Part shown: piece after piece, positions 125 through 30,350 of the stretch | How the letters are laid out: every line of letters starts with the position of its first letter | How positions within the stretch are numbered: the first letter of the stretch is position 1 | NCBI GenBank assembly: GCA_025558095.1 | Contig: JAIVFI010000002.1 | Location: 1,054,001-1,118,000 of the forward strand | DNA: 64,000 nt | Reading direction: 5' to 3' | From: Hyaloraphidium curvatum | Taxonomy: Eukaryota; Monoblepharomycota; Hyaloraphidiomycetes; Hyaloraphidiales; Hyaloraphidiaceae | Notes under the pieces: generated by a model | What the model was told of the DNA's origin: nothing | The model's input: only the letters and a program-made list of their open reading frames with translations | Database searches by the model: none | Program-made: the position numbers and the translations under genes

Positions 125-1705
125 ATGGAGTCCCACGCGATCGAACGCGATCCGGAGGCGGGCGACGCGCCGGGCGGCGGCGGGGATCCGGATCCGGCCC
201 CGCTTCGGGACAAGCAGCCTCCCGCCCCGCCGTCCTCCTTCCCGGACGCGGTCCCTTTTGCCCTTTCGCCGTGGGAATGGCTCACGCTGTTCCCGATGGC
301 GCCCGTTCCCGACCACGACTCGGGATCCCCGCCGCCCCCGGACCCGGCGTTGTCCCTGCGCGCCGCCGACCCGCTCACCCCCGCCGCCATGCTCGCCGGC
401 CTCGGCGCCGCCTCCCCCGTGCTCCGCGGCTGGACAAGGGCGCAGCTTGCCGTGTCGCCGTGGGCCGCCGGCCGTACGCGGCTGCGGTTCGCGACCAACA
501 TCGGGTTGGGTCTCGCGCTGCTCTCGGTGCAGTGGACGTTCAACGGCGAGGCGGGGCGATTCGGCGTGCCGCAGCTGGCCGCAGCGACGGTGTGCACCGC
601 CACGGCGGGGATCGCCAGCCTCATGCTGGGCTTCTATACGGGAAGGAGGCGGTACGCCGGTCCAAAGGACCTTTCGACGCACCCGCTCGCGGTCGTCGTC
701 CGCTGGGTGCAGCTCCAGCAGCTTTCGGGCAAGGATGGGTCGCCGCTGCTGGCACACGATCCGGGAGACAAGCTCTGTCCTTGTTCCCAATGCGGCATGC
801 GGGTGGTCACCAGGGCGGCTTGGCTGCGGACCGCCGAGTTCGCCGTCAGGATCCTCGTGATCGGGACCGGGTTCATGTTCTACTTCTTTTGGATGCCGGC
901 CGTCGTCTACCGGAGCTACACGTGGAGCACCTCCTGGGCCGCCGTGCTCTGCGTCCTGTTTGCTATTTCGTCGTTCGAATTCCACGTCAACAACCTCCTC
1001 GTGGTGCAGCCCCTGACCGTCGGCCCGCTGGACCTCTCCCTGCGGCTGCACAACCGCGCCGTCTCGCTCGCGCTCGTGGATTTCCGGCGGCGGTACCGGA
1101 TCCTCCTGGCCGGCGCGGACGGGCCCTCGGTGACGCGCATGGTCCCGGAGGAGGAAACCTACATCGTGCTGCAGAGCTCCATGGTGCCGACCTGGATCCG
1201 GCGCTTGTCGATCGTCGCCTTCGGGCCCTTCTACTTCTTCGTCGTCGCGACGCCGAACCTGGTCGTCAGCCTGGTCGCGAGCCTGGCCGCGGGAAACTGC
1301 ATCCCCGCCGCGGTGCTGTTCGGCCTCGGATACCACCTCTGCATCGCCGGGACGGACCTCCTCAACTTTGCCGAGAGCAACGCGCACGTGTCGGTCGTGC
1401 GGGACCTGTACACGCGGACGCGCACCGCGCTGCTCGAGCTCGGCATCAAGTCGGACACGATGGAGGTGCGCGGCGGGACGGGGCGCAGGAGCCCCGCGGC
1501 CGTCGCCTTGCTGGAGCGGCACGACGCGCTCCTGGGGAGCTACATCGCGGCGTCGGGGAACTACCTGGCCCGCTACATGGGCTTTGCGGTGGACGGGGCG
1601 GTGGTCCGGAACGTGGTCGCGACGTTCGTGACCGTCGCCGTCGGCCTGCTGGGAATCCTGCGCGGATCCGGTGTGTACGTCACATGGAACATGGCCTGCG
1701 GGTGA
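125..1705 (+). CDS. 7-TM gustatory-receptor-like protein, paralogue A (GRL-A)
   Basis: Single-exon ORF of 526 residues, and one of four paralogues in the window (others at 15924, 27062 and 28854). The N-terminal about 115 residues are proline-rich and hold a conserved SPWEWLTLFP-type motif. Hydrophobic segments lie near residues 122-142, 150-172, 238-262, 266-285, 360-385, 390-412 and 494-514, giving seven predicted membrane spans. If the N-terminus is cytosolic, all three long loops are cytosolic. The first of these carries the family motif HDPxDxLCPCxxCG (residues 211-224), possibly metal-binding. The last span, reading RNVVATFVTVAVGLLGILRG, is the best conserved part. This layout and the TM7 pattern resemble the insect gustatory/odorant receptor superfamily, whose distant relatives have been described in chytrid fungi. 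That assignment is inference; the membrane topology and paralogy are directly visible. The ATG at 125 precedes the first family motif by about 48 codons. Confidence 0.8.
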   Translation: MESHAIERDPEAGDAPGGGGDPDPAPLRDKQPPAPPSSFPDAVPFALSPWEWLTLFPMAPVPDHDSGSPPPPDPALSLRAADPLTPAAMLAGLGAASPVLRGWTRAQLAVSPWAAGRTRLRFATNIGLGLALLSVQWTFNGEAGRFGVPQLAAATVCTATAGIASLMLGFYTGRRRYAGPKDLSTHPLAVVVRWVQLQQLSGKDGSPLLAHDPGDKLCPCSQCGMRVVTRAAWLRTAEFAVRILVIGTGFMFYFFWMPAVVYRSYTWSTSWAAVLCVLFAISSFEFHVNNLLVVQPLTVGPLDLSLRLHNRAVSLALVDFRRRYRILLAGADGPSVTRMVPEEETYIVLQSSMVPTWIRRLSIVAFGPFYFFVVATPNLVVSLVASLAAGNCIPAAVLFGLGYHLCIAGTDLLNFAESNAHVSVVRDLYTRTRTALLELGIKSDTMEVRGGTGRRSPAAVALLERHDALLGSYIAASGNYLARYMGFAVDGAVVRNVVATFVTVAVGLLGILRGSGVYVTWNMACG

Positions 1706-1833
1706 TTGGAAGGGGAAGTCTTGGCATTGCGGTAGCCCATTTAGTTGTTGATCCGGATCAGATTGGTGATCGAAGAAAAAGTCCGTTTTCTGCCACGTCA
1801 ACCTCCGTCACCCTCCCGCGCGTAGACAGGACA

Positions 1834-2458
1834 ATGGCCGCCGAGACCAGCGCGGAAAGTATTGCCATCGACGTCAATGTCAGCATCGGCGGTGCGGGAG
1901 AAACCGCGTCAAGGTTCACTATTGCCGTGAATCCGACTGGCGCGACCCGTCGCGACCTGCACCGCGCCGTAGCGGAGGAACTGCGCCTCACCAGACTCCA
2001 GCGCGGCTACCTGCGCCTGGTGGTCCCGAACGAGCCCAAGATGAATGCGCCTGCAACCCCAAGGGAACTCGCGAGACTGCTCGCCGTGGAGGAGCCGGTG
2101 CGCTCAGAGGAGGTCCTTGGGGACCGCCTTGTCCCCGGATGCTGGATCTACGGTGCTTGCAACGTCGCGTACGGTGCGTGGTTTTCGGTCAGCCGTGATC
2201 CGAGCAGGGGAACCAACAGCCTGCTGGGCCCCGCCAGCTGTGTACTGGGCCAATCGATCGATTGGCAACCACCTGGCTCACCATACCGTCTTTATATCTG
2301 TCACCCTCAGCGTCGTGGTGGGCCCCGTTGTTACAAACGTGATCCTGGCGGGTTTGTCGAGGGAATGGGCGGCACTGGTGCTGTGCATTCTTGGGGGCAT
2401 CATCGGCTTCCACCACTGGGGAACGAGCACGGACATTGGCGCACGATGGATCCTGTGA
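1834..2458 (+). CDS. Small protein with ubiquitin-like N-terminus and two C-terminal membrane spans
   Basis: Unrecognised gene. Exon 1 (1834-2173) starts MAAETSAESIAIDVNVSIGG. It reads like a beta-grasp/ubiquitin-like strand-helix pattern: two beta strands, then the helix RDLHRAVAEEL, then YLRLVV. A GT-AG intron is needed to join it to the next open frame. The best fit is 2174-2237 (64 bases), but AGs at 2207 and 2219 would keep the same frame. Exon 2 (2238-2458) gives two hydrophobic spans, HTVFISVTLSVVVGPVV and WAALVLCILGGIIGF, and ends DIGARWIL. The predicted product is 186 residues, perhaps a ubiquitin-like protein tethered by a tail hairpin. No family could be named. The gene lies 129 bases after GRL-A on the same strand. 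Confidence 0.45.
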
Positions 2459-3366
2459 TCATTGGTGCGCGACCAACGTAGATTCCTCGTAGGATAACTG
2501 TTCGATTTGTACCTTTCGGAGTCGAAAGGTGTAGTCGAGGTCCTCAGAATGTCAGGTCGGACTCCAACCAAACACGACCGGTCTCCCGGGCTCTTCCCGG
2601 GCTCTTCCGCCCCTCCTCAAAGCTCAGAATCAGAGATCACGAGGTTTCGGGACCTCCCGAACGCTAGGCAGGCGCAATGCAGGAAGAGGAGGCAGCTGCG
2701 ACGTCGCCTAGACGCGGACCTCTAGCTGTCGGGCGACCAGCGCTTCCTGCCATCACCAACAGCCTCCGTCGCTTACAGCCTTACGTTGCAAAGATCTGAA
2801 GACTTCCAAACGCCAGGCAGGCGCCGAGGAGGAGGGAGAATGAGGCGAAGCATCGCCACCCAGCACCACCTCGAGCATGGTGCCGAGTCGCGTGTTCGTC
2901 GCACCCATGCCCCGCCCGGTCCTCTCACGCGGACGGTTACCTTGGGAGTCAGCAGCCTGAGGGGCGGCGGCCCACTGGGGACTAGATCTGACACTTTCAC
3001 GGGCTTGGTTTGAAAACCTGCTCGCCAACCTCCATTTCCCCGGACAACGTCGCGCTGGCCAGCAAATCACCCCTGGAAAGCGGTAGAGGAAAGATGAAAC
3101 TGAATGAAGGTTCCAACGCCGTCACGGGGGCCGATCAGGCCTTTGTCGGACAAGATCTGGCCAAGCTTGCTCCCACAACAACCTTCGCTGCTGACAGGGC
3201 ACCAGATCAAGCTCGCTATGCGGATCAAGGTGGCTCCGACGCGAGGCAGCGACCCGATACTTCCGCGTCTATCGGGCGCGCGGCGTACCCAACCTCACGA
3301 GTCCGGAGCTGCACAGCCTGCTGCGAAGCACTTTCGCGTCCTCCACACTGGCAAGCAGCGTTGAGG
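2459..3366. other. Intergenic, no gene recognised
   Basis: About 0.9 kb without a convincing coding pattern. Open frames here lack homology-like features. The motif CGCTAGGCAGGCGC/CGCCAGGCAGGCGC occurs twice (about 2662 and 2813). The frame of the next gene stays open upstream of its chosen ATG from 3010, so a longer N-terminus cannot be fully excluded. Confidence 0.4.
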
Positions 3367-3981
3367 ATGGCCGCAGCGGCGGCCGGGGGCGGCAGCGACG
3401 AGCCGTCCATCTGGCTGCGCGTGCTGCCGGACGCGGCGTTCGTGCGCGTGCCGCTGCGCAGCGCGACGGGCCGCCCGGTGCAGCACGACACGGACCTGCG
3501 CGGCCGCGTCGGCGCGGCGCTACGGCTGTCTGGCGCGCACACCGGCTGCATGCAGTTCGCGCTGTGTGCGCCCCCGGGTGGTGTCCCGTCGCGCGACGCC
3601 GCGCAGCTCGCGGCGTTCCTCCCCTCCGGCGCCGGCCCGGGCGCGCCTTTCGCCGCGCCCGACTCGCGGCTCGAGCGCGGCGCGTTCGTCGTCGCGCGCG
3701 CGGTGCCGGGCCGCTCGTGGCTGGGCGCCGTCGGGGGCGCCGTCGACGGCGCGCTGGACAGCCTGTTCGGCGCCGGCGGCGCCGGGGAAACCGCCGCCCG
3801 CTTCCGCAGCCCGGGCGACCCGCTGCCCCCGGGGCTGGAGACGTATGCGTACCCCGAACCCGAACCCGAACCCGAAGCCGGCACCGGTCCCGGAACCAGC
3901 CCCGCGGAGGCGCTGCCCGAGCTGCCCCGTGCGCCCGGGGTGCCCCGCGATCTCCGCGAACGCCACCCCAAGCGGGACTGA
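3367..3981 (+). CDS. Hypothetical protein with possible ubiquitin-like N-terminal domain and Glu-Pro tail
   Basis: ORF of 204 residues from the ATG at 3367. The N-terminus (SIWLRVLPDAAFVRVPLRS, then DLRGRVGAALRLSG, then FALCAPPGG) has the strand-strand-helix-strand rhythm of a ubiquitin-like fold, similar in plan to the product of the gene at 1834. The middle is Gly/Ala-rich. The tail has an EPEPEPE run encoded by a short CCCGAA hexamer repeat at about 3855-3880. The frame is open upstream to 3010, but that stretch has no structure I can support, so the internal ATG was chosen. Function unknown. The gene converges on the epoxide-hydrolase-like gene. Confidence 0.4.
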   Translation: MAAAAAGGGSDEPSIWLRVLPDAAFVRVPLRSATGRPVQHDTDLRGRVGAALRLSGAHTGCMQFALCAPPGGVPSRDAAQLAAFLPSGAGPGAPFAAPDSRLERGAFVVARAVPGRSWLGAVGGAVDGALDSLFGAGGAGETAARFRSPGDPLPPGLETYAYPEPEPEPEAGTGPGTSPAEALPELPRAPGVPRDLRERHPKRD

Positions 3982-4208
3982 GCGCCGTGTGGGCGTTGAC
4001 TGTGGTTCCAGAGGTCGCTGCACGGGTGCCGTGGCTTCTGCCAGTCCGGCCCGTCTCCATCGCGTGGGGAGTCGAGTTGCTACACATCGACGGACCGTAG
4101 CCATTGGGACAGCCTTTGAGGGCGATCCGTCGAGAAGATTGCGAAGAGGGCGTGCTTCTTTGGTCTCGTGTGTGATTGGTTCCAGTGTACCATGCCCAGC
4201 TCTGTCTT

Positions 4209-5553
4209 CTAGAGGGTCTTCTTGCCTCCCGCCAGCCACTCCGACACCATCCCCACCACCAGGTCCGGCACCTCGTCCACGACAAAGTGCCCGATCCCGT
4301 CCAGCGCCCTTATCTCCATGTCCCCCGGCCGCTCCATGATGTGCTCCGGCAGCCCCGTCAGGCACGTTGCGGCGTCCAGCGCGATGTCGTTCAGGCCCCA
4401 GATGACCAGCGTGCGGCACTGGACCTTGCCGGGCAGCTCCAGGGTCGTCCGCGCGTTGGAGCGGTAGTAGTTCACCATCGCGGTGATGGCCCCGGGTTGC
4501 AGCGCGTTGAATCTGTGCACGTCCGCCGTGCGCTGGGGGAACATGGTGCTCAGGCCGCGGGCGTCCTCGCCCGTGAGGAGGAGCTCGGGGAGGCCGGGGA
4601 TTTGGAAGAAGATGACGTACCAGGATTTGCCGAGCTGGAGGGGCCGGTTAGGCGACAAGAAGCGGGGGCAAACGGTCCTCTCTCACCTGACGCCAGGTCA
4701 TGTTGCTGGCGTACAGCGATCCGGGCGGGCAGTTGATGATCACGAGGTCCGAAACCATCTCTGGGAACCTGGTCCGACGAATCAGCCTCGACGGGTCGGC
4801 CAAACCGCGTCCGCGCAATCACCTCTGTGTGTAGGCCCAGCTCAGCATCCCGCCCCAGTCGTGTGCGACGACGGCCGTCTTGCCGCCCTTCTTCCCCTTG
4901 CGCTCGAGCACCGCTTCCGCCACCGCCTTGAGGTCGTCCGTCAGCTCCTTGACCGTGTAGTGCTGCAAACCCGTGGGCCTCGACGATCCGCCGTAGCCCC
5001 GAAGGCTGACTGCGACCATGTGCCACCGCGACATCCTCTCGTCCGTGAGCAGCGGTTCCCAAGTGAACCACGATTCAGGAAACCCGTGGACGAGCATGAC
5101 GACGCCCGCGTCGGGATCGTCCACGGCACCGGCCTCGACGACCTGGAGCGAGATCCCGGGCTTGCCGCCGGGCAGCTTGCCGTGCTTCAGCTTCGGGTCG
5201 TCCACGCTGCTGGCGGGCTCCGGGCCGGTGTAGAGCGGCCCGAGCAGCCTCTTCCCGGCCTCCCTCTTGCGCTCCTCGGTCCACTGCGCCTGCTTCTCCT
5301 CGGCGCCGGGCTTGGCGCCGAACCCCAGCAACCTGGCGATCCCGCCGCCGATGCCGCGCACGACGATCGCCTTGAGGAATATCTCGACCACCACCACGCG
5401 CACGACCTGGTAGCTCCCGTAGGCGGCGAACATCAGGAAGCGCGAGAAGGGGTTGGCCCAGACGCGGCGCAGCAGGCGGTCCCAGAAGGTGATGGGCGGG
5501 ATCAGGCCCGCGGGGAAGGGGTGGCGGTGGATCTTGGGCGCGGGGGCGGACAT
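4209..5553 (-). CDS. Alpha/beta hydrolase, epoxide-hydrolase-like (EPHX3/4 type)
   Basis: Three exons (5553-4823, 4768-4687, 4634-4209) give 412 residues. Introns 4769-4822 (54 bases, branch GCTGATT) and 4635-4686 (52 bases, branch CCTAAC) restore one continuous family pattern. The N-terminal hydrophobic segment, about residues 39-65, could anchor it in a membrane. The oxyanion motif is HGFPESW (156-162). The nucleophile is Asp in HDWGG (D232). The first intron joins AYTQR to FPEMVSDLVIIN, the usual region after the nucleophile elbow, and FFQIPGLPELLL follows. A late Asp in WGLNDIALD and the catalytic His in DGIGHFV complete the triad. Known members open epoxides through an ester on the Asp; the substrate here cannot be told. 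The start at 5553 (MSAPAPKIHR) was preferred over an upstream ATG at 5661 because the membrane segment follows it at normal spacing. Confidence 0.85.
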
Positions 5554-5833
5554 GGCGGGGGCCCGAGCGCGGCGCGAGGATAGGAAGGGAGGTACGGCGT
5601 CCGCGCGGCACCCGGACGGCGGCGAGACGGGGGAGACCGGATGCGGATGAACGGTTTCCACGGTCCCCGATCGCGCGCCGCGCCGCGCGAGACTTTGTTG
5701 ACCGCGTCGATCGCGTCATTGCCGTCTGCCTCCTGCACTTCTCCAGGCGCGGAGTCGCTGAGTCGGACCACCGAGTCGGACCTTCGGCGTCACATCTTCG
5801 CGCTCGAACGCGGTCTGCCGCCCGACGATCGCG

Positions 5834-8109: not shown

Positions 8110-8214
8110 TCTGCAATAGATGGATCTTCTGGACGGTTTCGACCTCGGCATGGTTCTTTCACGGGGGCGTGAGACGCGTGATTGAACCGTCAAGTCCGCC
8201 TATCCGTCGCCGCA

Positions 8215-9282: not shown

Positions 9283-9357
9283 GCATCTCCTGTCGGCGCC
9301 TTCGTCTCTTTTGGAACCTCCAGCATTGTTCTTGATCTTCACCCAATCCATTACACG

Positions 9358-15923: not shown

Positions 15924-17593
15924 ATGAGTACGGGGACCTGGGGCTCCTCGCGGACCCTCCCGTCGCCTCATGCCTCCGGTCCGTTCCGCTTCACCAGCTC
16001 GGAGTGGGCGGCGCTCTTCCCCGCCGGCCCCGCTCCGCCGCAGACCCTTTCGTTGGCGTCCGCATCGCCGCCGGCCCGGCCGCGCCCGGAGCCGCTGACG
16101 CGGGCCGCCATGCTTGCGGCCCTGGAGCCCGCGCCGGTCCTGCGAGCGGTGGCCGCGGCGCAACTCGCGCTGGGACCCTGGTCGGCCCGTTTACTCATGC
16201 CAGTGAATCTCGGATCGGCCGTCTCGATGTTGTCCATGCTGGCGCCGCTGTGGGTGTTTGGAGCTGGCACATTCGGAACAAAAGACCTCGCGGCCTGTAG
16301 GTGGCCGCAACTTTGTTCCCGCCGAGCCGCCCGATGACCGTCCCACAGTATCGGCCACGTGCGTCTGGAGCTGCATCGGCATGCCAATGCTACTCATCAT
16401 CCGCGGCACCTCGGTCAAGTCCCGCGCGGCACCGGAGCCCGATGACGCGCTCTCGGTCGCCAGCTTGCCGAGGTCTGGAACGGGGGAGCCTGCGCTGGAT
16501 GACCACGTTCTTGCTGGCGTGGCGCGGTACTACCACCTCGCCCGCATGGACAGCGACTACAGGAAATCCCATGAGGAACACAAGGATGATCCAGAGCACG
16601 GTCATGGCACAGGGTTTTCCCGCCGGAACGAGGGCACGAGCCTGCTGCTGGCCCACGAGCCTGACGACGAACTTTGCCCGTGCCCACTCCCTTCGTGCGC
16701 CGGCTCTCGCGTCGCTTCGGCGGGCATCATCTGCATCGTCGAGGCGACCGTTCGCGCCATTTGGATGCTGCTCATGCTTTCTCTGATCCTGAACTGGACC
16801 GCATTCTGGACCTTTGCATCCCAGAACTGGTACACCTGGTGGTCCTGCATCCTCTCGATCGCCAACGTAGCTGTGCAGCTCCTGCTCGCCGTGCTCAAGG
16901 AGTACGGCACGGTATGGAGCAACGCCAGAATCCTCGGCTTGCACGAGAGGCTCCACCGCCGCGCCGTTTACCTCGCCCTGTCCACCTTCCTGCAGCGGCA
17001 CCGCGACGCCCTGCAGTACCCGGACATGGATCAGCCCGAGCCCGCTGGGCCCGAACCGTACCAGGAGCTGCACGCGAACCTCGCTTCGATCTGGCGCGGC
17101 CGCATTCCGTACATCGCCGACAACATGTACTTCTGATACCCTCGTCTTCACCGTCAACGGCGTATCGGCCGTGATCCTGGCCAGCACTGGCCTGTGCATT
17201 CCCCTCTGGCTCATCCTCCACCTCTCGCACGGCTTCCTCAGCCTGCTCGTGGACCTGGTCAACCTCAGCGTCTCGAACCACCAGATCAGCGCAGTGACCA
17301 ACCTTTACCACGATGCCATCCGCGAGATCCGCGAAACTGTGGCCAGTGGGCGCCGGACCGCCTGCCCCGCGCGCAAGGAGATCCTGGAATCGCTGCGCGA
17401 CCACGGCGCTGTGCTGCGGTCGTACCTCGAGGTGGACCGCTATCGGGCGAGGGTGTTTGGGGTGCCGGTGGACTTCGCGCTCGTGCGGACGCTGTTCATG
17501 GCGACGGTGACTTTGGGTGTTGGGTTGTGGACGGTGCTCAGGGGGAGCGGGCTGTACGTGACCGTCGAGACAGCGTGCCCTGCGGCGGGGTGA
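15924..17593 (+). CDS. 7-TM gustatory-receptor-like protein, paralogue B (GRL-B), possibly disrupted
   Basis: Paralogue of the gene at 125. The N-terminal motif FTSSEWAALFP matches the family. A 52-base intron (16297-16348) restores TM1-TM2 homology (KDLAA-LSATCVW). The motif LLLAHEPDDELCPCPLPSCAG follows, then TM3-TM4, the cytosolic loop with LHERLHRRAVYLAL, and TM7 ending TLFMATVTLGVGLWTVLRG. At 17134-17136 an in-frame TGA interrupts TM5. There are two readings. A 58-base intron (17127-17184) keeps the frame (519 residues) but removes the TM5 core. Alternatively, one extra T is a frameshift, after which DTLVFTVNGVSAVILAS supplies TM5 exactly where the paralogues have it. Unlike the other three family members it needs at least one intron. 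Confidence 0.65.
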
Positions 17594-17660
17594 GCCGCCT
17601 GTTTATTGGATGCGATGAAGTGCAATGAAACCATTCATTCTCGAGACAGATTACAACGCT

Positions 17661-19016
17661 TCAGGCGACGAGCTCCTTGGAGAGCCTGGGCACGATCTCC
17701 CCCTCGATCGCCGCGATCTCGACCTCCAGCGCGTGCACTTTGGCGCCCAGCTCCGGGTGGTTTGCGTCCGCCTGTTGCGCCTCGAGCAGGGCGTTCCGAG
17801 CTTGGGCTCTGCTGAACTTCGCGGCCGCCAGCTGCTTCTGAGCGGCCCCGAGAGCGCGGTAGGCCGCCACCCTCCTCGCCGCCCTGATCTGGTCCTCCTC
17901 GGGGTTGGCGACCGGCGGGTCGACCGCGACGGCCGACTGCTGTGCGAGGGAGGCGTTCGCGGGGGCCACCGAGCCGCCGTAGGGGCAGCTGGAGCCGTCG
18001 GGGCTCCAGTAGGTGATCACGGCGTAGCCTGCGTTCCCGCCGTAGCCCGAAGGGAGGACGCTGTAGCCCCTCGAGTTCATGGGGGCACCTTGCCCTGCGG
18101 CCGCCGGCGGGTTGATGGTCCAGGTGGGTGCCATCGAGGCAGCACCGAGCTGAGCTGGGGATTCGAGGCCGTCCTGCGCGAACACGCCGTCGCCCGCATC
18201 GCTTCCTCCGGCGCCGCCATAGAACCTGGTCGCCGGCGAGCCCTGGTTGTCCATGGTGTCGCCCCCGCCCTGGCCGCCGCCCGAGCCGTAGCCGGCCCCG
18301 CCGCCAGCGGCCATGTTCCATTGCGAGCCGCCCGTGTTGCTGTTGCCGGGGAGCCCGCCCTGCTCGTTGAGCGAGCCGCCCTTCCCGCCCACGTCCGGCT
18401 GGCCCGGGGTCGCGCCGTCGCCCGCTGCACCGGCCTGCATGGGGCCGTCGGCCTCGCCGCCCCCGCTGATGCCGTGGCCGAAGGCGCTCGCGTCGCTGCC
18501 GCCTCCGCCGCCAATGGCTCCGGCCCCGCCGCCTCCGCCCGCGCCGACGTCGCCGCTGGCCCCGGGCGGCCTGTAGTCCGTTTGCGCCGAGGCCCCTCCG
18601 CCTCCGCCCCCGACCTTGACGACGATGTCGTCCCCGGGCAGCGCGGTGAAGGCGAGCGTGACGCGGCCGCCGTCGCCGCCCACGGTGTCCGGCATCGCGT
18701 TGGCTCCGTCGCCGCCCCACGCGTAGAACCGGTTCTGGCCGACGGTGATGGCCGTCGAGCCGCCTCCTCCGCCTCCTCCGCGCTTGGTCCCCGACCCGCC
18801 GCCGCCTCCAACGAGGGTGACGTTGAACGGGAGCGGCGCGGCCGAGGCCGGGAGGGCCACGTTGAATGTGGTGACGACGTTGTTGATGCAAAGGACGCCC
18901 TGTTGCTGGGCGGCTGCCGGGGTTGCCAGGGCGAGGCCGGCCACGAGGGCGGCGGCGATCGAGGCCACGGAGCGGCGGCGGTGGGAGACGTTGGAGTTGG
19001 TTGCGGTTGGCGACAT
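17661..19016 (-). CDS. Secreted glycine-rich protein GRP1, left copy
   Basis: Single exon, 451 residues. A signal peptide (VASIAAALVAGLALATPAAA) is followed by VLCINNVVTTFNVAL and the family core: PFNVTLVGGGGGSG, GGGGSTAITVGQNRFYAWGGDG, GGRVTLAFTALPGDDIVVKVGGGGGG. A long Gly/Ser/Asn-rich region and the module GYGGNAGYAVITYWSPDGSSCPYGGS follow. The C-terminal about 75 residues form a charged coiled coil (EEDQIRAARR...). The alternating beta-strand and polyglycine pattern is like glycine-rich domains of ALK-type receptors and phage tail proteins; extracellular matrix or wall use is inference. The start MSPTATNSN was chosen because the signal peptide follows it. A TATA box lies about 100 bases upstream, and the gene is divergent from GRP2. 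Confidence 0.85.
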   Translation of the reverse strand: MSPTATNSNVSHRRRSVASIAAALVAGLALATPAAAQQQGVLCINNVVTTFNVALPASAAPLPFNVTLVGGGGGSGTKRGGGGGGGSTAITVGQNRFYAWGGDGANAMPDTVGGDGGRVTLAFTALPGDDIVVKVGGGGGGASAQTDYRPPGASGDVGAGGGGGAGAIGGGGGSDASAFGHGISGGGEADGPMQAGAAGDGATPGQPDVGGKGGSLNEQGGLPGNSNTGGSQWNMAAGGGAGYGSGGGQGGGDTMDNQGSPATRFYGGAGGSDAGDGVFAQDGLESPAQLGAASMAPTWTINPPAAAGQGAPMNSRGYSVLPSGYGGNAGYAVITYWSPDGSSCPYGGSVAPANASLAQQSAVAVDPPVANPEEDQIRAARRVAAYRALGAAQKQLAAAKFSRAQARNALLEAQQADANHPELGAKVHALEVEIAAIEGEIVPRLSKELVA

Positions 19017-19113
19017 GTCGCGTTTCGGAATGGGATGAATCGTCGGTATTGGCAAAGTCAACGGGTTCTTTGTGACTGCGCGTGATTCCTGCTGCTCCGA
19101 GCCATCGCGGAGC

Positions 19114-19120
19114 TATATAT
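19114..19120 (-). promoter_or_regulatory. TATA box of GRP1 (left)
   Basis: TATATA on the minus strand, about 98 bases before the GRP1 ATG at 19016. It shares a roughly 400-base divergent promoter with GRP2. Confidence 0.7.
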
Positions 19121-19283
19121 CCTTGTCTCCCGGGTTTTAGAGCGCGCTGTTCGGGAAGCGAGGCGGAGCGGGCTGTGCCAAGGGATTGGATTACCCCGGC
19201 GAGTGCTCGCCAGAACCGTCGCGAGAACTGCTCCGAAACGTGCAATGCTCCGCCGCCGCCACCTCCAAAACCCGCACGACGCG

Positions 19284-19290
19284 TATATAA
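19284..19290 (+). promoter_or_regulatory. TATA box of GRP2 (left)
   Basis: TATATAA on the plus strand, 124 bases before the GRP2 ATG at 19414. The spacing is similar to the other glycine-rich genes. Confidence 0.7.
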
Positions 19291-19413
19291 TGGCGCCGGG
19301 TGCAGGGGGCCCCATCACCAGCGCCAACGGACACACAGAGCAACCCAGCTACTCTCTCCGATTCTCGCTCGACTCCAACTCCAACCTTCTCATACATACT
19401 TCACTCCGATAAA

Positions 19414-20403
19414 ATGTCGACCGACACGCGCCGCAACGCGTCCCCCCTCCGCGCCCTGGCGCTTGGCCTCGCCGGCCTCGCCCTCATCGGCACCGCCGCG
19501 GCCGCGCCGCTCGCGGCCCGCCAGGCAAAGACCTGCACGACGGACATCCGCACGTACCTCGCCCGGCCCAACCCCTACAACGCGGACTTCTCCCTCGCCT
19601 TCACCCTCGTCGGCGCCGGCGGCGGGGCCGGAGGCAGCCACGGATCGGGAGGCGGCGGCGGGTCGACCGCCATCGCCGTGTCGTCGGATCCGACCGACAC
19701 CGACGGCAAGTCGGGATCGCGGCGCTACGCCGCCGGCGGGACCGGGGGCAAGAGCGCGTCGGGCGACAACCCCGGGGCCAACGGCGCCGTGGTCAAGGGC
19801 ACAATCACCCTCTCGGCGGGACAGTACCTCTTCGTCAAGGTCGGAGGCGGTGGCGGTGCGGGCGGCGGGTGGAGCAAGGACAATGCCGGCGGCGGCGGCG
19901 GCTCGGGTGCATACGGTGGCGGCGGGGGCTCGACCGGGAAGAACGGGGGCAACGGCGGGGAGGGCGGCAACGGAGAGTTCCACGGCGGCAACGGCGGCTC
20001 GGGCGACGCCTCGAACGGCGGCTTCGAGAAGGGCGGCTACGGCGCACCCGGCGTGGGCACGGGCGGGCAGGGCGCGACCGGCAACTACTCGCAAGCCTCG
20101 TTCGCCTACGCCTACGGCGGCTCGGGCGGGGGCTTCGGCTCGGGAGGCGGTTGCGGCACGCCCAGCGGCACCAAGGGCGCCAAGCAGGGCATGCCCGGCG
20201 GGTCCTTTGGCACGGACGGCGGGTCGTACTTTTACCCCTCGGTGCTGCTCGGCGGCAAGGGGGCGCTGAGCTTCGTCTCCACGGGCTCGCTGGATGCGCC
20301 GGCCGATGCGGGCAAGGGCGCGCTGAAGGGCGGCTACGGGGGGAACGCCGGGTACGCCATCGTCCAGTACGCCTCGCCGGACGGTGTCAGCTGCCTGCTG
20401 TAA
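19414..20403 (+). CDS. Secreted glycine-rich protein GRP2, left copy
   Basis: Single exon, 329 residues, starting MSTDTRRN with a signal peptide (ALALGLAGLALIGTAAAAPLA) and a short leader ending AARQAK. The core has FSLAFTLVGAGGGAGGS, GGGGGSTAIAVSSDPTD, GTITLSAGQYLFVKVGGGGGA, then long Gly/Asn/Ser-rich stretches. It ends with the family module GYGGNAGYAIVQYASPDGVSCLL. It lacks the coiled-coil tail of GRP1 and GRP3. The chosen ATG is preceded by AAAA and follows the TATA box by 124 bases; an upstream in-frame ATG at 19300 lies only about 10 bases after the TATA box and is unlikely to be used. Confidence 0.85.
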   Translation: MSTDTRRNASPLRALALGLAGLALIGTAAAAPLAARQAKTCTTDIRTYLARPNPYNADFSLAFTLVGAGGGAGGSHGSGGGGGSTAIAVSSDPTDTDGKSGSRRYAAGGTGGKSASGDNPGANGAVVKGTITLSAGQYLFVKVGGGGGAGGGWSKDNAGGGGGSGAYGGGGGSTGKNGGNGGEGGNGEFHGGNGGSGDASNGGFEKGGYGAPGVGTGGQGATGNYSQASFAYAYGGSGGGFGSGGGCGTPSGTKGAKQGMPGGSFGTDGGSYFYPSVLLGGKGALSFVSTGSLDAPADAGKGALKGGYGGNAGYAIVQYASPDGVSCLL

Positions 20404-21028
20404 AGTGGCTCTCGAAATGGATAATTGCTTGAATGAGTCGATTGCCGTCCTTGATGCCCGGGGTCCATTTCCAATCATGTCTCCTGCAAATCACTCTGGT
20501 GGACGAAGCCGCCCCCAATCTTACCGCATCGTCCTCAATCTCGGGCTCCCGCCGTCCTCCAGATGGGCTTGCCCGAAATTCGGGTCCGCTCCGTCATTGA
20601 GGGACACCGATCTCTGGGGGTGGACGTCCGTCTTCATGAGGCAGACGACAGGCGGCCCGGGACTATGGCCGAGCCGGATAGGCGACCGCGAGCAGTTCCT
20701 GATGAGCTGGCTGATGCAAGCCTCGGAGTACATTTCTGGACCAACAGAGCTCCGTTCCCCATTTGCTCCGCCGAATCAAAGGTGCCTCTGCAGGTCCGAA
20801 AACCAATTGAATTCCCCCACGACACTGCCGTCACCGGGCGGCATTCCATCCGAGTCCGAATTTCATGAAGATGCGAAAAGTACAGGATCTCCGGGCATGG
20901 GATTCGCGCGTCATTGGGCCGTCAGAACTCCGAGCCCAGCCGGCTGTGCTGTGCGTGGCGAAGCAGAACCTTCCACCATCCCCGCCAGAACGCGATGCGC
21001 TCCAAATCTCCGACTTTACGCGGCGCCG
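20404..21028. other. Intergenic between GRP2 and GRP3 (left), no gene recognised
   Basis: About 0.6 kb of less GC-rich DNA upstream of GRP3. Short open frames here show no domain or repeat. The mirror copy in the right arm is 31929-32553. Confidence 0.4.
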
Positions 21029-21035
21029 TATATAT
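21029..21035 (+). promoter_or_regulatory. TATA box of GRP3 (left)
   Basis: TATATAT inside CGCCGTATATATGCGG, 113 bases before the GRP3 ATG at 21148. Confidence 0.7.
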
Positions 21036-21147
21036 GCGGTGCCTCTGCAGATGTCGGCGGCACCATCCTGCGACGACCTGAGCGGCACTCAGGCCACAGA
21101 GCGGACCTCCTTCTTCACCTCAATATCGAACCAACACCAACAACAAC

Positions 21148-22479
21148 ATGCCCAGCCGCGTCGCGCTCATCGCGCTCGCCGCGTCCTCCCTTCTCTTGGC
21201 CTCGCCCGCCGCGGCCTCCCAGCTCCTCTGCGTCAACAACATCCCCGTGCAGTTCTCGGCCACGCTGGACGCCTCGGCCGCGCCGCTGCCGTTCAACATC
21301 ACGCTCGTCGGCGGCGGCGGCGGCTCGGGCGCCGGAGGCGGCGCGGGAGGCGGCGGCGGATCGACGGCCGTCACGGTCGGCGGCAACCGATTCTATGCGT
21401 GGGGCGGCGACGGGGGGGCGGCGGCGCTCACCACGGGCAACGACGGCGGACGCGTCACCCTGGCATTCTACGCGCTGCCGGGAGACGTCGTCACCGTCAC
21501 GGTCGGCGGGGGCGGCGGCGGAGGGGCCGAGTACTACCCGGCGAACTTCTTCTCCCCCAACTCGGACCCATGCTCGCTCGGCGGGGGCGGAGGCGGCGGG
21601 GCCGGCTCCGTGGGGGGCGGCGGCGGCACCGCCAACGACCAGCACGCCGACCGCGGGGGCGGCGGCGGCGAGGCGAGCGGGCCCCTCGCATGGGGCGCCG
21701 CCGGCAAGGGCGCCATGCCCGGCAAGGCCGGCGTGGGCGGCACGGGCGCCCGCAACCTCGGCTTGCAGGTGCAGGGCGGCGTCGGAGGCAACAATCTCGC
21801 GGGCGGCTCCGTGGGCGGCCAGCTCGCCGCGGGCTGCGGAGGGGGCTTCGGAGGCGGCGGCGGCCAGGGCACGGGGCAGGCAACCAACAACCCGGATCCC
21901 TCCGGTTACGACCCCGTGTACGGCGGCGGCAACGGCGGATCGGCCGGGGCCAACGGGCAGCTGTTCAGCACGAACCTGCCGGCGCCGCAGCCCCAGCTCG
22001 GCGCCAACGCCTTCGTTCCCACCGGCACGATCAACCCCCCCGCCGCCGCCGGGCTCGGAGGCATCAAGTACAGCACGGGCGACTACCAGATCCCCATGCT
22101 CGTGCCCTCGGGCTACGGCGGCAACGCCGGGTACGCCGTCATGACCTACTGGAGCCCCGACGGCGCCTCGTGCCCCCTCGGCGGGTCGCCGCCCGCTTCC
22201 GGCGGGGGCTCGGCGCAGAACGCGATCGCCGTGGACCCGCCCGTGGAGCACCCGGAGCGGGACCAGATCGGGATGGGGAGGATGTCGGCCCGCGAGCGCG
22301 CCGAGGAGGACCTGGCCGGTGCCAAGGCGTACCAAGCCCAGCTCGAGGACGCGATCGCGAGGGCCGAGGCGGCGGGGCAGGACACCGCGGCGCTGCGCGC
22401 GCAGGCGGATCGGGTGCGGATGGCGATCGCCAAGCGCGAGATGCCGGCGGCGCACCTGTTCAGGCGGTGCATTCGGTGA
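21148..22479 (+). CDS. Secreted glycine-rich protein GRP3, left copy
   Basis: Single exon, 443 residues. The signal peptide is MPSRVALIALAASSLLLASP. The same architecture as GRP1 follows: LLCVNNIPVQFSATL, PFNITLVGGGGGSG, GGSTAVTVGGNRFYAWGGDG, RVTLAFYALPGDVVTVTVGGG, a long glycine-rich region, and GYGGNAGYAVMTYWSPDGASCPLGGS. The coiled coil ends in AHLFRRCIR. The translated sequence is identical to the right-arm copy. The stop codon is only about 10-25 bases from the inner end of the repeat arm. Confidence 0.85.
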   Translation: MPSRVALIALAASSLLLASPAAASQLLCVNNIPVQFSATLDASAAPLPFNITLVGGGGGSGAGGGAGGGGGSTAVTVGGNRFYAWGGDGGAAALTTGNDGGRVTLAFYALPGDVVTVTVGGGGGGGAEYYPANFFSPNSDPCSLGGGGGGGAGSVGGGGGTANDQHADRGGGGGEASGPLAWGAAGKGAMPGKAGVGGTGARNLGLQVQGGVGGNNLAGGSVGGQLAAGCGGGFGGGGGQGTGQATNNPDPSGYDPVYGGGNGGSAGANGQLFSTNLPAPQPQLGANAFVPTGTINPPAAAGLGGIKYSTGDYQIPMLVPSGYGGNAGYAVMTYWSPDGASCPLGGSPPASGGGSAQNAIAVDPPVEHPERDQIGMGRMSARERAEEDLAGAKAYQAQLEDAIARAEAAGQDTAALRAQADRVRMAIAKREMPAAHLFRRCIR

Positions 22480-22490
22480 ACTGCTTTGCA

Positions 22491-23100
22491 TAAATGAAAA
22501 CTCAGTTTGCCATCACAATTGTTCCGACACGCCCTCATTCGCGCCGGTGCTGCGCGCGCGAAGACACCCCCCACGGTGCCAGCTGCAATAGACCTCTGCG
22601 TCTATTGATCCGCTGGCCCCTGTCTAACCCAGGCAACCTCCCGGTCTCGCCGGCACGAGTGGACCGTGCGAACCGTCGTCGGGCTCCGGTTAGCAAGGAG
22701 ACAATTGTTCCGACACGCGCAGCCTCGCTGCTGAAGCATCCAGTCCTTGAAGGTCAATCCGCGAGATATGATAGTATCCTTCTGAGTCTCTCCACGGGCA
22801 TTTGCAAACAGGGCCTCCCTGGAGCCCGCGCACATGCATCCACCGCCTGAGGTCACCTTTGCTTTGGACAACTTTGCCCGTACGCATCTTGATTGAGCTT
22901 GCGCTAACCCGCTCGGATTCGAACAGCAGCATCTCGTCGGACTCGGACAGCACACAAGTTTGCCAATGTTTCCATTGATCGTCCTTTTCGTTTACATTAG
23001 AGGTTCCCCCGTTGAAATCCCGTCCCGCCCCGATGTCAAGCCTAGTTACCCCTCGGCGCCATGATGAAAACTTGGTTGCGCTATGAAGCGCGGTCGCCGC
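22491..23100. other. Start of inverted-repeat spacer, no gene recognised
   Basis: Non-coding as far as can be seen. It contains an 18-base perfect direct repeat, ACAATTGTTCCGACACGC, at 22515-22532 and 22701-22718. An 87-codon minus-strand ORF (22953-22690) has no recognisable feature. Confidence 0.4.
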
Positions 23101-25505: not shown

Positions 25506-25620
25506 CGCGTGCTGTTGCGGGTTGGAACGGGTGGGTGCGAGTTGCAAGTTGGTTGCGAGTGCTATCGTCCGCTGTCTGATGACGGAAGACGATGGGGAAC
25601 GGCCCCGGGGAGACGGGCCC

Positions 25621-25626
25621 TTTATA
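25621..25626 (-). promoter_or_regulatory. TATA box of PB1/coiled-coil gene
   Basis: TATAAA on the minus strand (GCTATAAAGGG), about 116 bases upstream of the ATG at 25505. Confidence 0.65.
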
Positions 25627-25993
25627 GCTTGCGTCATGTGGCGGAGCTCCTCAGCGCGAACCCCACGTTCTTGACGTCACCGTGCATCGCCCTCCGGCCT
25701 CTGCACCCCGCTCGCACGCTCCGAAACGACCGATATAATTCTTTTGTCATCGCTCCGCGGCATCGGGGCCGAAAGCGGGGGCTAGGGGGTCCGAAACGGG
25801 GAGATGGGACTGGTGTACCAATCTGGATCCAATCGCGGTCCCACGGGCGCCCAGAGGCCCCAATCCACCTCCAAACCGCGGTTCTCGATAGTTTATTCGT
25901 CTAGATGCCCGCAATCCGGGTCTCTGTCTTGCAAACGGCGACCAATCGCCCCCCGACCCGCCGCACGGCCCCTTCCCCGCATGCGTCCCGGCC

Positions 25994-26809
25994 CTAGAAC
26001 CCCGCCATCCCCGCCCACCCCCTCAACCTCTCGTACGACACCCAAAAGCAAAGCTGCCACGGTCCCAGCCTCGCCCACGTCGGCCAGAACCCCCTGTACA
26101 GCCCCCTCAGTCCCTCCTCCCCCCACGTCCGCCATAGGCAGTCCCACGCCCCCACGTACCGCGGGTTCGACGGATCTTGCGCCATCAACCGGGTTTTCAC
26201 GACGTCGGCGGGGGTGGAGAGCAGGCTGGATACCAGGCCGGAGCAGATTGCCGCGCCCACGTGCGCCGCGAGGTTGTCGCCGCCCGCCAGGGGCACCACG
26301 CGCGCCTTGGCGGCATCGTAGGTGGCCAGTTCCCCGAGGTTGACGATCGCCGCGCGCTGCACGGCCGGCAGGCCCCCGCGGAACAGCCCCCGCGGCCCCG
26401 CTCCGACCGCCGTCCGCAACGCGGCCCCGAGGGTCGGGTTGGCCCGCGGGTCCGCGACCATCCTGATCTTTGCCAGGTCCAGCGGCACCGCAACCGCCTG
26501 CCCCGCCGCCCCCGAGACGAACCCGAACGCCAGGAGCGCGGGCAGCGGCGGCCTGCCATCGCTCCCCGTCCGCGACGCGTGCCACCGCTTCAGCGACTCG
26601 AACATGGCCACCCGCACCGACGTGTACGGCAAATGGCGGAGCACCGCGGCCGACACGCCCGCGTAGAGATGGCCCGTCCGGGGGGGGCCGGCGAGCTGCC
26701 GCCGCGTTTTGAACGCGTCGACGGGGTACGTGGCCAGCTCGGCCGCCGCCGCCGCGCAGGCGGATAAGGAGAGGCGGGGGGGGAGCGCGTCCGATGCGCG
26801 GGTCGACAT
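25994..26809 (-). CDS. Mitochondrial carrier family protein, uncoupling-protein-like
   Basis: Single exon, 271 residues from the ATG at 26809. All three carrier repeats are present with their P-x-[DE]-x-x-[KR]-x-R signatures: YPVDAFKTRR, VPLDLAKIRM and TPADVVKTRL. Matching loop motifs are GLFRGGLPAVQR and GLYRGFWPTWARLGPWQL. The last half (ADVVKTRLMAQ, YVGAWDCL, LYRGFWPTWARLGPW, FWVSYERLR) is closest to the UCP4/UCP5 branch. These are inner-membrane transporters with six helices. The substrate is not determined; UCP4-like members are thought to carry anions or protons. The N-terminus begins directly at helix 1, so it is slightly short. Confidence 0.88.
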   Translation of the reverse strand: MSTRASDALPPRLSLSACAAAAAELATYPVDAFKTRRQLAGPPRTGHLYAGVSAAVLRHLPYTSVRVAMFESLKRWHASRTGSDGRPPLPALLAFGFVSGAAGQAVAVPLDLAKIRMVADPRANPTLGAALRTAVGAGPRGLFRGGLPAVQRAAIVNLGELATYDAAKARVVPLAGGDNLAAHVGAAICSGLVSSLLSTPADVVKTRLMAQDPSNPRYVGAWDCLWRTWGEEGLRGLYRGFWPTWARLGPWQLCFWVSYERLRGWAGMAGF

Positions 26810-27061
26810 CGCGAGGAGGTGCGAGGGCGCCAGAGCTGACTGGATCGGGTCTGCGGTCCCGCGTCGACGGGGCTCCTCGGATTGTGGCGAAAGCAACCTT
26901 GCTTTGCTGGGCACAGAGAGATGAGCATCGACTGCTCTGCATTCCGCAATCAAGCACGAAATCAGTACATGATCAGGCTGCCGGGGTTGAGAAGTGCCCG
27001 TGGCCCGTGGCCAACAGCCGATGACGACCGAAGCCTCACTAGCAACTGTCCCACGCCCCCA

Positions 27062-28624
27062 TCAGAAGATCGGACACACCGACTGCAGCGTCGTCCGGGT
27101 CCCCACGGCCCTCAGCACACCCCACAACCCCACCGCCACGGTGAAGCCCGAAGCCGCGACGGTCCCGACCAGCCCGAAGGTCACCCCGAAACCGAGGAAC
27201 TTTGTCCTGAGCCCGCCCACGTTGGCGAACGAGGCGAGCATCCCCGCGTGGGCCTCGAGCACCGCGATCGCGCGGTCGTCGGGCTGGGGGGCATGGGGAT
27301 CCGTGCGCGCCGCACGGCCGCGGAGGACCAGCATCCGCGCGCGCTCGACGGCCCCCGAATAGGCGACCGCCGCGCCGTCGATGTCGCGGTTGGCCGCGGC
27401 GCAGGTGAGCAGGTCGAATGCGAGGAACGCGGCGACCACGGCGACGTCGGCGATGTTGTAGGCCGTGAGGCAGCCGCCGGCAAAGAGGTTGCAGAGGCAC
27501 ACGACGACGGCACCGACGGCCGTGGACACGACGATAGAGCGGGAGGCCGTATACGACCGCAGCCTGGTCTCCCAAGAAGATACCAGCTGCCGATGCAGCG
27601 AGATGTAGGTCTCGTCGTCGGGCGGGGGCAGCGGGATCGGGTGCCCGCCAAAGGCGGAGGCTTCGCAGCGCGAGACGAGGTCGTCCAGCGTGAGGTCCAC
27701 AGCGCGCAGCCGCAGCCGTCGCTCCAGGGCAATCACTGAGAACGGAGGAAGCAGGGTCACTTGCCGGAAGTAGATGTCGGCGAGGTAGGTCGAGATGTAG
27801 ACAAGGAGGTAGATTGCTGCCAGCGTGGCGGCCCACGGTGCTTTCCACGTTGGGAGAAAGAAAAACTGGGTCCAGGTGAGCAAAATGACCCAGGCCATAA
27901 AGAACAAAACAAAGACCACCGCAAAACTCGAAAAGACCAGTGTCGGAGTGATTTGCACGAGCGAGGTGCCGCAGGAAGGTGACGGGCACGGGCACCGACC
28001 GGCCGCGCGGTCCTTCGAAGAGTGGCGGAGAAGGGCCGATGATGAATCTCCAGCAGCGAGCTCGAGCCAGCGGGCTAGCGGGGCAAGAGCATGGTGGTCC
28101 ATCTGCCCCGGTTGCGCCTGCGAGTCCTCGCTTTTGAGGCCCTCCTGCGGGCCATCCTTCTGCTGCTCGACATCAGCGTCGCCGAGACGAGCTTCCCTCT
28201 GGGCGGCCATGACGACACCGACGACGGTGCCAGCATACAAGATGCTGCGGAGGAGGACGCCCACGGTGGTCCCCGCCATTGCGGCGGTAGAAAACGCCCC
28301 CGTAGCCGGCGCCAAGGCCCAGAGGATCGAGATCCACGTCGCATCGATAAAGACCCTCATTCCGACCACCTTGCCGACCGAGTCGGTGCTGAAGAGCCTC
28401 ATAATCGGCGCCATGCCCACGGCGGCGGCCAGCGCGGGCGCGGCGCGGTCGAAGTCCGCGGCCATGCGCGGCAGCGTGAGCGGCGGCACCTCGCCCGGGG
28501 CACCATCTGCGGCAAAAAGCGCGGCGGTCTCGGCGGGCGAGAAGCGCAGCGGGGCGGCCGGAGCGGGGCGGTCTTCGCGCGGCGCGAGCCCCTCCGCGGC
28601 GGTGGAGGGCTCAGATTCCGTCAT
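27062..28624 (-). CDS. 7-TM gustatory-receptor-like protein, paralogue C (GRL-C)
   Basis: Single exon, 520 residues from MTESEPSTAAEG (an upstream ATG at 28711 would add 29). It has the family motifs FSPAETAALFA near the N-terminus, LLRHSSKDRAAGRCPCPSPSCG in the first long loop, and ALERRLRLRAVDLTLDDLVSR before TM5. FLGFGVTFGLVGTVAASGFT, then VAVGLWGVLRAVG, marks TM7. The loop between TM2 and the CPCP motif is longer than in A and D and is charged (DVEQQKDGPQEGLKSEDSQ). Like its paralogues it ends with a Cys a few residues from the C-terminus. It is the most divergent member, sits head to head with GRL-D (start codons about 230 bases apart), and lies inside the inverted-repeat spacer. Confidence 0.78.
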   Translation of the reverse strand: MTESEPSTAAEGLAPREDRPAPAAPLRFSPAETAALFAADGAPGEVPPLTLPRMAADFDRAAPALAAAVGMAPIMRLFSTDSVGKVVGMRVFIDATWISILWALAPATGAFSTAAMAGTTVGVLLRSILYAGTVVGVVMAAQREARLGDADVEQQKDGPQEGLKSEDSQAQPGQMDHHALAPLARWLELAAGDSSSALLRHSSKDRAAGRCPCPSPSCGTSLVQITPTLVFSSFAVVFVLFFMAWVILLTWTQFFFLPTWKAPWAATLAAIYLLVYISTYLADIYFRQVTLLPPFSVIALERRLRLRAVDLTLDDLVSRCEASAFGGHPIPLPPPDDETYISLHRQLVSSWETRLRSYTASRSIVVSTAVGAVVVCLCNLFAGGCLTAYNIADVAVVAAFLAFDLLTCAAANRDIDGAAVAYSGAVERARMLVLRGRAARTDPHAPQPDDRAIAVLEAHAGMLASFANVGGLRTKFLGFGVTFGLVGTVAASGFTVAVGLWGVLRAVGTRTTLQSVCPIF

Positions 28625-28853
28625 CGCGCCGGCGCGTGTCAAAGCGACGAAGAGTGACAACTTCCAATAGAGAGACTTCCAATGCAAGGGCTCTTTGATG
28701 GTGGGATACACTTCCGACGCGTGGAAGATTCGCGCGGAAGCTGACTGCGGATTCGCGCCGTATCGTCTTCCCCGGTGACAGACGGCGGAGCCTAGACACC
28801 CAGCGCGGGACCGATTTCCTGCTCCTTATTTCGCCCTTAGCGCGATTCGCGCC

Positions 28854-30350
28854 ATGGCGGCCGAGATTGCCGCCGAGACGCTTGTGCCAATGTGCTGCAC
28901 GCCGGACGACGCACCGCCTGAGGCCTTCACGCCCCGCGAGTGGATCGCATTGTTCCCGGCCCCGGCCGTGCGCGCCCAGGGCTCGCTGGAGCCGCCGCCC
29001 GCCGACCCCGCGAAGCTGCTGCGGGCGGAATCGCCGCTCTCCCGGCGCGACCTCCTCGCTGCGGTCGGCGCCTCACCCGCGCTCGCGCTGCTCGTGCGTG
29101 CGCAGCTGTCCCTGGCGCCGTACGTCGTGCCCTACCACGGGTGGCGCGTCACGGCCTACTACGTCACGGGATTGGCGCTCCTGTCGGTGCAGTGGGCCTT
29201 TGTCGGCGACCTCGGCCGTTTCTCCACGGCGCAACTCGCCGTGGGCACCTTTGTGACCGCGCTGCACACCACGTTTGCCTTTGTCATCTTTGCTTTCTTT
29301 GCCGGGGTATTTACGAGGCGCATCGTGCTCCCCTCGGACCTCTCGGAGCACCCTTTCGCGGTCTTCGTGCGCTGGTCGCAGCTCTGCGACGAGGAGCCCG
29401 GTTCCCGCCTGCTGCGCCACGATCCCGCCGACGCACTGTGCCCGTGCCCCGCCGCGGGGTGCGCGGGCAAGCTGCTCGACCGGGCCGCGCTGCTTCGGGT
29501 GGTCGAGGTGGCCTCGCATATCTGCGTCGGGTTCCAGTTGTACTTCTTCATCTACCTCGTCATGCCCGCTGTGGCCTACGCGGCCTACAGCTGGACTTCC
29601 CCATGGGCCGCCACGCTGTGCGTTGCCAACGCTTTGCTGATCGCCGAAACCGTCATCCTCCAGGTCCTCGCCGGGGCGCGGCACAACGTCGCGACGATGC
29701 AGCTCACCCTGCGCCTGCATAAGCGGGCGTGCCGACTGGCCCTGGATGGCTTGCTCTCGCGGTACCGGGCCCTCGCCGCGGGCAGCCAATCCGGCCCGCA
29801 CCCCGTGCTGGTGGACGAGCCTTACCTCGCGCTGCAGGACTCCCTCGGGCCCACATGGCGCACGCGACTCCAAAGGGTGGCCTCCGGCCCGGTGTTCATC
29901 CTCACCCTCCCTCTGTACGCGCTGATCGTGGCCGCCGCGGGCATCGCCCTGGGCAACTGCATCCCCTTCGCCGCCGTCGGCGCCCTGATCATGGTGGCCT
30001 TCCTCGCCGCACTGGACCTCACCGTGTTCACCGCCAGCAACTCGCACGTGGCCGCCGTGGCGGAGCTCTTCGACGAGGCGCGGTCGGCCCTCCGCCGCGC
30101 GCGGTACGAGGCCGACGCCGCGGGCCCAGCGCCCTCGGTCGCGGCTCGGGAGCTCGGCGAGCACCACGACCGCCTCCTGTCGGCGTTTTCCCGCGCGCCC
30201 GAGGCGTTCTTTGCCCGCTTCATGGGGTTCAGGGTCGACGCCGCCGTGTCACGCAACGTGGCGGCGACCGCGATGACCCTGGCAATAGGGCTGTGGAGCA
30301 TCCTGCGCAGCTCGGGCGTCCGGCTGACCCTGTATACGACCTGTGGATGA
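28854..30350 (+). CDS. 7-TM gustatory-receptor-like protein, paralogue D (GRL-D)
   Basis: Single exon, 498 residues. FTPREWIALFP stands at residues 25-35. Predicted spans are near 98-118, 130-152, 216-242, 248-272, 342-365, 370-392 and 466-486. The cytosolic motif LLRHDPADALCPCPAAGCAG is at 186-205, the loop helix LRLHKRACRLALDGLLSRYR precedes TM5, and MGFRVDAAVSRNVAATAMTL leads into AIGLWSILRSSG in TM7. Closest in sequence to GRL-A. The last residues LTLYTTCG keep the family's near-terminal Cys. Role inferred from fold similarity to gustatory-type receptors is a ligand-gated channel in the plasma membrane; no ligand can be proposed. Confidence 0.8.
   Translation: MAAEIAAETLVPMCCTPDDAPPEAFTPREWIALFPAPAVRAQGSLEPPPADPAKLLRAESPLSRRDLLAAVGASPALALLVRAQLSLAPYVVPYHGWRVTAYYVTGLALLSVQWAFVGDLGRFSTAQLAVGTFVTALHTTFAFVIFAFFAGVFTRRIVLPSDLSEHPFAVFVRWSQLCDEEPGSRLLRHDPADALCPCPAAGCAGKLLDRAALLRVVEVASHICVGFQLYFFIYLVMPAVAYAAYSWTSPWAATLCVANALLIAETVILQVLAGARHNVATMQLTLRLHKRACRLALDGLLSRYRALAAGSQSGPHPVLVDEPYLALQDSLGPTWRTRLQRVASGPVFILTLPLYALIVAAAGIALGNCIPFAAVGALIMVAFLAALDLTVFTASNSHVAAVAELFDEARSALRRARYEADAAGPAPSVAARELGEHHDRLLSAFSRAPEAFFARFMGFRVDAAVSRNVAATAMTLAIGLWSILRSSGVRLTLYTTCG

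Follow-up and report, generated by a model that had tools for sequence, protein, structure and literature searches.

A large family of seven-helix membrane proteins with a predicted 7TMIC-type fold in the fungus Hyaloraphidium curvatum

Insect smell and taste depend on the 7TMIC channel superfamily. Other organisms possess only one or a few copies, and what these proteins do outside animals has for this reason stayed obscure. Four related genes for membrane proteins, found in a 64-kb stretch of Hyaloraphidium curvatum DNA (66% GC; hereafter "the window", meaning the whole stretch), raise the question of whether this fungus possesses such proteins and, if so, how many. The species is a non-flagellated fungus placed in the Monoblepharidomycota (PMC8371127), and its analysed genome comprises 31.9 Mb in 55 contigs. 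LYS2, the fungal aminoadipate reductase, was found there in two pieces, both scoring strongly (747 and 684 bits). As for cilium genes, IFT57 was matched only weakly, below the threshold, and IFT46 not at all, in a search that had no valid eukaryote control.

The window genes and their family in the genome

The four gustatory-receptor-like (GRL-like) genes, named A to D, are the following:

125-1705, + strand: gene A, 526 aa, single exon; an open frame with blastp matches to B, C and D
15924-17593, + strand: gene B, interrupted by one intron and by a break of the frame near 17133
16297-16348, + strand: intron of gene B, 52 nt, GTAGGT...CCACAG (GT-AG)
27062-28624, - strand: gene C, 520 aa in one exon; its loop-1 motif is divergent
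28854-30350, + strand: gene D, 498 aa, single exon

Pairwise blastp among the four was decisive for their paralogy, as originally predicted: A and D are 43% identical over 497 aa (E 6e-84), and A matches C with an E value of 1e-23 and B with E values of 4e-20 and 3e-12. All four were present at the expected positions, with the corrections that C lies on the minus strand and that B carries an intron and a frame break. Concerning B, a putative second intron (17127-17184) restores the frame at the cost of TM5, and it was disfavoured since this two-intron reading scores 424.6 bits with the family HMM vs. 452.5 bits for the two pieces joined across the frame break. This leaves three readings of gene B: pseudogene, assembly error, or alternative form that uses this second intron.

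The surroundings of these genes include an inverted repeat of 4.84 kb (17638-22480 and 30477-35319; 99% identity, with 3.5 kb at 100%), which arose either by a recent inverted duplication or as an artefact of the assembly. Its spacer of 8.0 kb contains genes C and D, and its left arm starts about 45 nt past the stop of gene B. Glycine-rich proteins of one family, whose N-termini resemble signal peptides, are encoded at 17661-19112 (-), 19291-20403 (+), 21082-22479 (+) and 30478-31875 (-); the two members tested had no match in Pfam.

The family had been described as four-membered, which understates its size about a hundredfold. When the genome was searched with the proteins of A, C and two divergent members, each search gave at least about 80 scored loci; pooled with a random sample, the searches provided at least 180 distinct confirmed loci. 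The loop-1 motif described below, written as a strict DNA pattern, occurs at 116 genome sites (vs. 0 for the reversed pattern) and, in a looser form, at 312 (vs. 2). When sites matching only the loose pattern and lying outside the earlier matches were sampled, 12 out of 13 encoded members (104-280 bits or more with the family HMM, main pieces), while shuffled frames, used as the control for these 13 sites, gave no match. The loose motif is present in 33 of the 53 members (62%) obtained by protein search on contigs C1-C13, and extrapolation from the motif leads to about 480 family loci (390-600), a rough figure because a few loci are duplicates of identical stretches. Such identical stretches of about 4 kb were seen on two contigs (C30:69262-70362, locus L007, and C48:24811-25911, locus L008); they are possibly haplotigs or a recent segmental duplication and may slightly inflate the copy counts.

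Allowing for one small intron, 11 of the 12 members in the random sample are intact, and eight of these contain one GT-AG intron each, of 52-65 nt, similar to that of B. The dN/dS ratios of seven paralog pairs (about 0.25-0.36) indicate that the family is under purifying selection. Clustering is modest, with 28 neighbour pairs within 15 kb vs. 11 expected. Close neighbours are most often divergent (-,+), as in 12 of 31 pairs within 15 kb; one such pair, C14:38288-39778 (-) and C14:40326-41819 (+) (L041 and L033), is 82% identical, and this arrangement hints at duplication by inversion. Relatives were also sought in prokaryote and viral contigs and none was found, so that no horizontal origin is visible there.

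Conserved anatomy

Anatomy and conservation were read from an alignment of 39 full-length paralogs with a mean identity of 30%. From the N- to the C-terminus, the order is a proline-rich N-terminus with a conserved P-EW-ALFPA box, TM1, a 5-aa loop, TM2, a 78-aa loop (loop 1) with the motif H-x3-D-x2-C-P-C-x(2-4)-C, TM3, a 7-aa loop, TM4, a 74-aa loop, TM5, a 5-aa loop with an invariant Cys, TM6, a 66-aa loop, TM7 and a short tail with a 97% conserved Cys. The seven hydrophobic spans and the three long loops on one side, first noticed in the window genes, are thus borne out in the 39 paralogs (78/74/66 aa on one side vs. 5/7/5 aa on the other). The long-loop side carries nearly all of the charges and, by the positive-inside rule, the N-terminus and the long loops are predicted to be cytosolic; for the N-terminus, this prediction also follows from the fold match presented below. 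With the long loops so placed, C392 and the tail residue C525 would be extracellular, and the two may form a disulfide. The main conserved sites of the window genes are listed here:

755-793, + strand: loop-1 motif of A, HDPGDKLCPCSQC, with its conservation in the 39 paralogs given below
27971-28024, - strand: loop-1 motif of C, divergent, HSSKDRAAGRCPCPSPSC
29418-29462, + strand: loop-1 motif of D, HDPADALCPCPAAGC
1298-1300, + strand: C392 of A, TM5-TM6 loop, 100% conserved; putative disulfide partner of C525
1697-1699, + strand: C525 of A, C-terminus, predicted extracellular, 97% conserved
1580-1675, + strand: GFxVD motif before TM7 and TM7 (predicted pore helix) of A
30225-30320, + strand: GFRVD motif and TM7 of D

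The loop-1 motif, predicted to be cytosolic, is common to most family members: in the 39 paralogs (A numbering), C218, C220 and C223 are 100% conserved, H211 97% and D215 92%. The HDPxDxLCPC form first described is altered in C. The motif is plausibly a metal or redox site. TM7 and the C-terminal tail are the best-conserved parts of the family. The TM7 consensus as first written fits A and D and differs from the family-wide form, G-F-x-V-[DT]-x3-V-R-[TN]-x3-T-x2-T-x3-GLW-[ST]-hLR-G-x-G-V, with the conserved arginines R495 and R513 on either side of TM7. A hypervariable outer ligand pocket was sought in the paralog variability and not found; some of the highest variability lies in the inner halves of TM3, TM4 and TM5, whereas ligands of the insect receptors bind in the outer halves.

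Predicted fold and comparison with known receptors

GRLs are recognised by seven TM helices, a length of about 350-500 aa, an intracellular N-terminus and intracellular loops longer than the extracellular ones (Benton 2020, PMC7746228; Benton and Himmel 2023, PMC9998090). The proteins studied here have 498-526 aa, their seven hydrophobic spans are seen in the 39-paralog average as well as in both structural models, and their loops show the asymmetry given above.

AlphaFold2 models were made for A and D, from alignments of window sequences with 3 and 6 rows, respectively, and their confidence is low (pLDDT 52.8 and pTM 0.46 for A; pLDDT 59.4 and pTM 0.58 for D); they are not fully independent, the two paralogs being 43% identical and their alignments overlapping. 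The AF2 ptm weights were trained on PDB structures no later than April 2018, and the first Orco structure dates from August of that year; the fold was probably not memorised, since the PDB is not known to have contained it at that time. Both models have seven helices, with TM4-TM6 extended into the cytosol. TM6 is long and a separate helix precedes TM7, two features that are also described for BmGr9 (PMC11100771).

In Foldseek searches of the PDB, ranks 1-9 for A (probability 0.82-1.00; best E 0.024) and ranks 1-15 for D (probability 0.90-1.00; best E 0.006) were all insect gustatory or odorant receptors (GR/OR), and GPCR entries appeared only as weak rows with a probability of at most 0.15. 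With VIA-align, whose Z is given on DALI's scale, rows 1-17 for A (Z 17.0-11.5, with Gr43a on top at 17.0) and rows 1-20 for D (Z 15.2-11.7) were again all GR/OR, over 300-345 residues, and the first unrelated folds followed at 9.4 and 9.9, respectively, these next-best rows being helical proteins. Mostly helical models may reach a Z near 14 without kinship. Against Orco (6c70_A), the low-confidence model of D scored Z 12.0, where the structural screen of Benton and Himmel used a cut-off of Dali Z > 10 (PMC9998090). TM-scores ranged from 0.24 to 0.49, as expected from models built on such shallow alignments. The anticipated resemblance to Orco and GRs was therefore recovered in the ranking, which is nearly exclusive, and not in the TM-score, which at its highest stays just under the proposed 0.5.

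At the sequence level, Pfam gave no match at E ≤ 10 for the window members and nothing meaningful, the GR family included, for the 39 members, and searches of PDB sequences with the family returned one chance match only (E 0.24). The helix number is seven and no unrelated family was matched in these Pfam and PDB sequence searches, so that neither outcome named beforehand as speaking against the receptor reading occurred. PF08395 was not found in the genome, in a search that was uninformative as no control rang. Profile similarity to animal GR/OR, which counts as supporting evidence for 7TMIC membership, was absent: HHalign against profiles of Gr43a, BmGr9 and Orco gave probabilities of 0.1-0.2%, the same as reversed decoys (for Gr43a and Orco, each letter of the sequence was compared with the PDB chains). 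Since neither Pfam nor HHalign found sequence-level similarity, the case for membership is one of fold and topology. The trypanosome members, too, were recognised by their fold after sequence searches had failed (PMC9998090).

Around TM7, a local resemblance was fitted by eye. A V or L before a polar residue stands 14 residues ahead of the TM7 threonine in Gr43a (GLCRVN...ATY), BmGr9 (GMCTLD...TTY) and Orco (FFTVS...VTY), as it does in GFxVD...xxT of the fungal family, the common segment being of the form G-h-x-(x)-V-[DNS]; this shared spacing is suggestive only. The TM7 motif (T/S)Yhhhhh(Q/K/E)(F/L/M) is diagnostic, albeit not definitive, for 7TMIC/GRL proteins (Benton 2020; Benton and Himmel 2023), and the Y, Q and F of TYhhhhhQF shape the pore gate of BmGr9 (PMC11100771). 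In the fungal family, the T (T503) is kept in 92% of members, while aliphatic, Ser/Thr/Gly and aliphatic residues replace Y, Q and F. Because of this replacement, a pore, if any, would differ from that of BmGr9.

In sum of likenesses, the family resembles insect GRs (Gr43a, BmGr9) and ORs (Orco, MhOr5, AgamOR28) in its predicted fold, its seven helices, its long cytosolic loops with extended helices and its separate helix before TM7; unlike them, it carries the CPC loop-1 motif, the conserved C392/C525 and a long proline-rich N-terminus. Previously, fungal GRLs comprised one gene each in two Spizellomyces species (SpunGRL1 and SpalGRL1; Benton et al. 2020, PMC7746228), to which a subsequent screen by structure added none in the fungi surveyed (PMC9998090). 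Compared by description only, these two belong to the same topology class and also keep one of the four TM7 motif positions. Each Spizellomyces species has one GRL, whereas the genome studied here has at least 180 confirmed loci and, by estimate, about 480. Protist and trypanosome GRLs and plant DUF3537 proteins, of the same proposed superfamily, form small families (1 to about 12 genes), and the CPC loop motif is not reported for them in PMC7746228, PMC9998090 or the other literature cited. With respect to PMC7746228 and PMC9998090, the fold is known, while the scale, the cytosolic motif and the altered pore helix appear to be new. The arrangement of the helices, the unequal loops and the helices extended into the cytosol agree with the GRL architecture, and we favour the 7TMIC reading: A to D are probably members of this superfamily (GR/OR/GRL fold), which has expanded to hundreds of genes in this fungus.

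Alternative readings and possible role

The resemblance to insect receptors could also have arisen by chance, since helical bundles may mimic them in low-confidence models of an unrelated, lineage-specific 7-TM family. The low pLDDT, the TM-scores under 0.5 and the lack of sequence similarity in Pfam and HHalign agree with this view. Such a coincidence appears improbable to us, as the models of both paralogs rank only GR/OR first, with a gap to all else, topology, loop pattern and helix extensions agree with GR/OR, and no fold of the GPCR, microbial rhodopsin or adiponectin-receptor type competes. Still less credible, to the point of being rejected, is the idea that the copies are cargo of mobile elements or a decaying repeat family and not host genes: the copies number in the hundreds and are dispersed, the frame is broken in some of them (B, L063), and identical duplicates such as those on C30 and C48 occur, all of which might suggest it, but the flanks of 33 loci, when compared, contained no common repeat and shared only neighbouring members and one duplicated contig stretch, and the low mean identity, the dN/dS ratios and the intactness of most sampled copies speak for genes.

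More deserving of attention, if on the whole unlikely, is a 7TMIC fold inherited by descent and put to a membrane role other than that of a ligand-gated channel, such as scaffolding, lipid handling or metal sensing. The pore-gate signature TYhhhhhQF is largely lost, with G and S at gate positions in place of hydrophobic residues and Q, the new Cys/His/Asp motif is the best-conserved feature of the soluble part, and the functions of most non-animal 7TMICs are not known (PMC7746228). Yet TM7, the pore helix of the known fold, is the best-conserved segment, and hundreds of divergent paralogs resemble a recognition repertoire.

Under the channel reading, which takes the insect receptors as its model, the N-terminus of each protein would lie in the cytosol, seven helices would cross the membrane, and four subunits, alike or mixed, would make up a tetramer. 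A central anchor would be built from the helix before TM7 and the parts of TM2, TM4, TM5 and TM6 that extend into the cytosol. TM7 would line the pore, and the channel would open when a small molecule binds in the outer bundle. The proteins may serve to sense external or internal chemicals. The loop-1 CPC-x(2-4)-C/His/Asp motif, probably metal- or redox-binding, would stabilise or modulate the anchor, and a putative extracellular C392-C525 disulfide may hold the end of the pore helix.

A bolder reading, somewhat less likely than not, is that a unicellular, early-diverging and possibly non-flagellated fungus has hundreds of ligand-gated 7TMIC channels with a cytosolic Cys/His/Asp metal or redox site that is not known from this superfamily. 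If true, the 7TMIC fold would be used as a large repertoire of divergent, selected copies outside animals, which would amount to the independent invention of a channel-type chemoreceptor system of insect scale. The predicted cytosolic site might control gating, and the family would offer a system for asking what non-animal 7TMICs sense.
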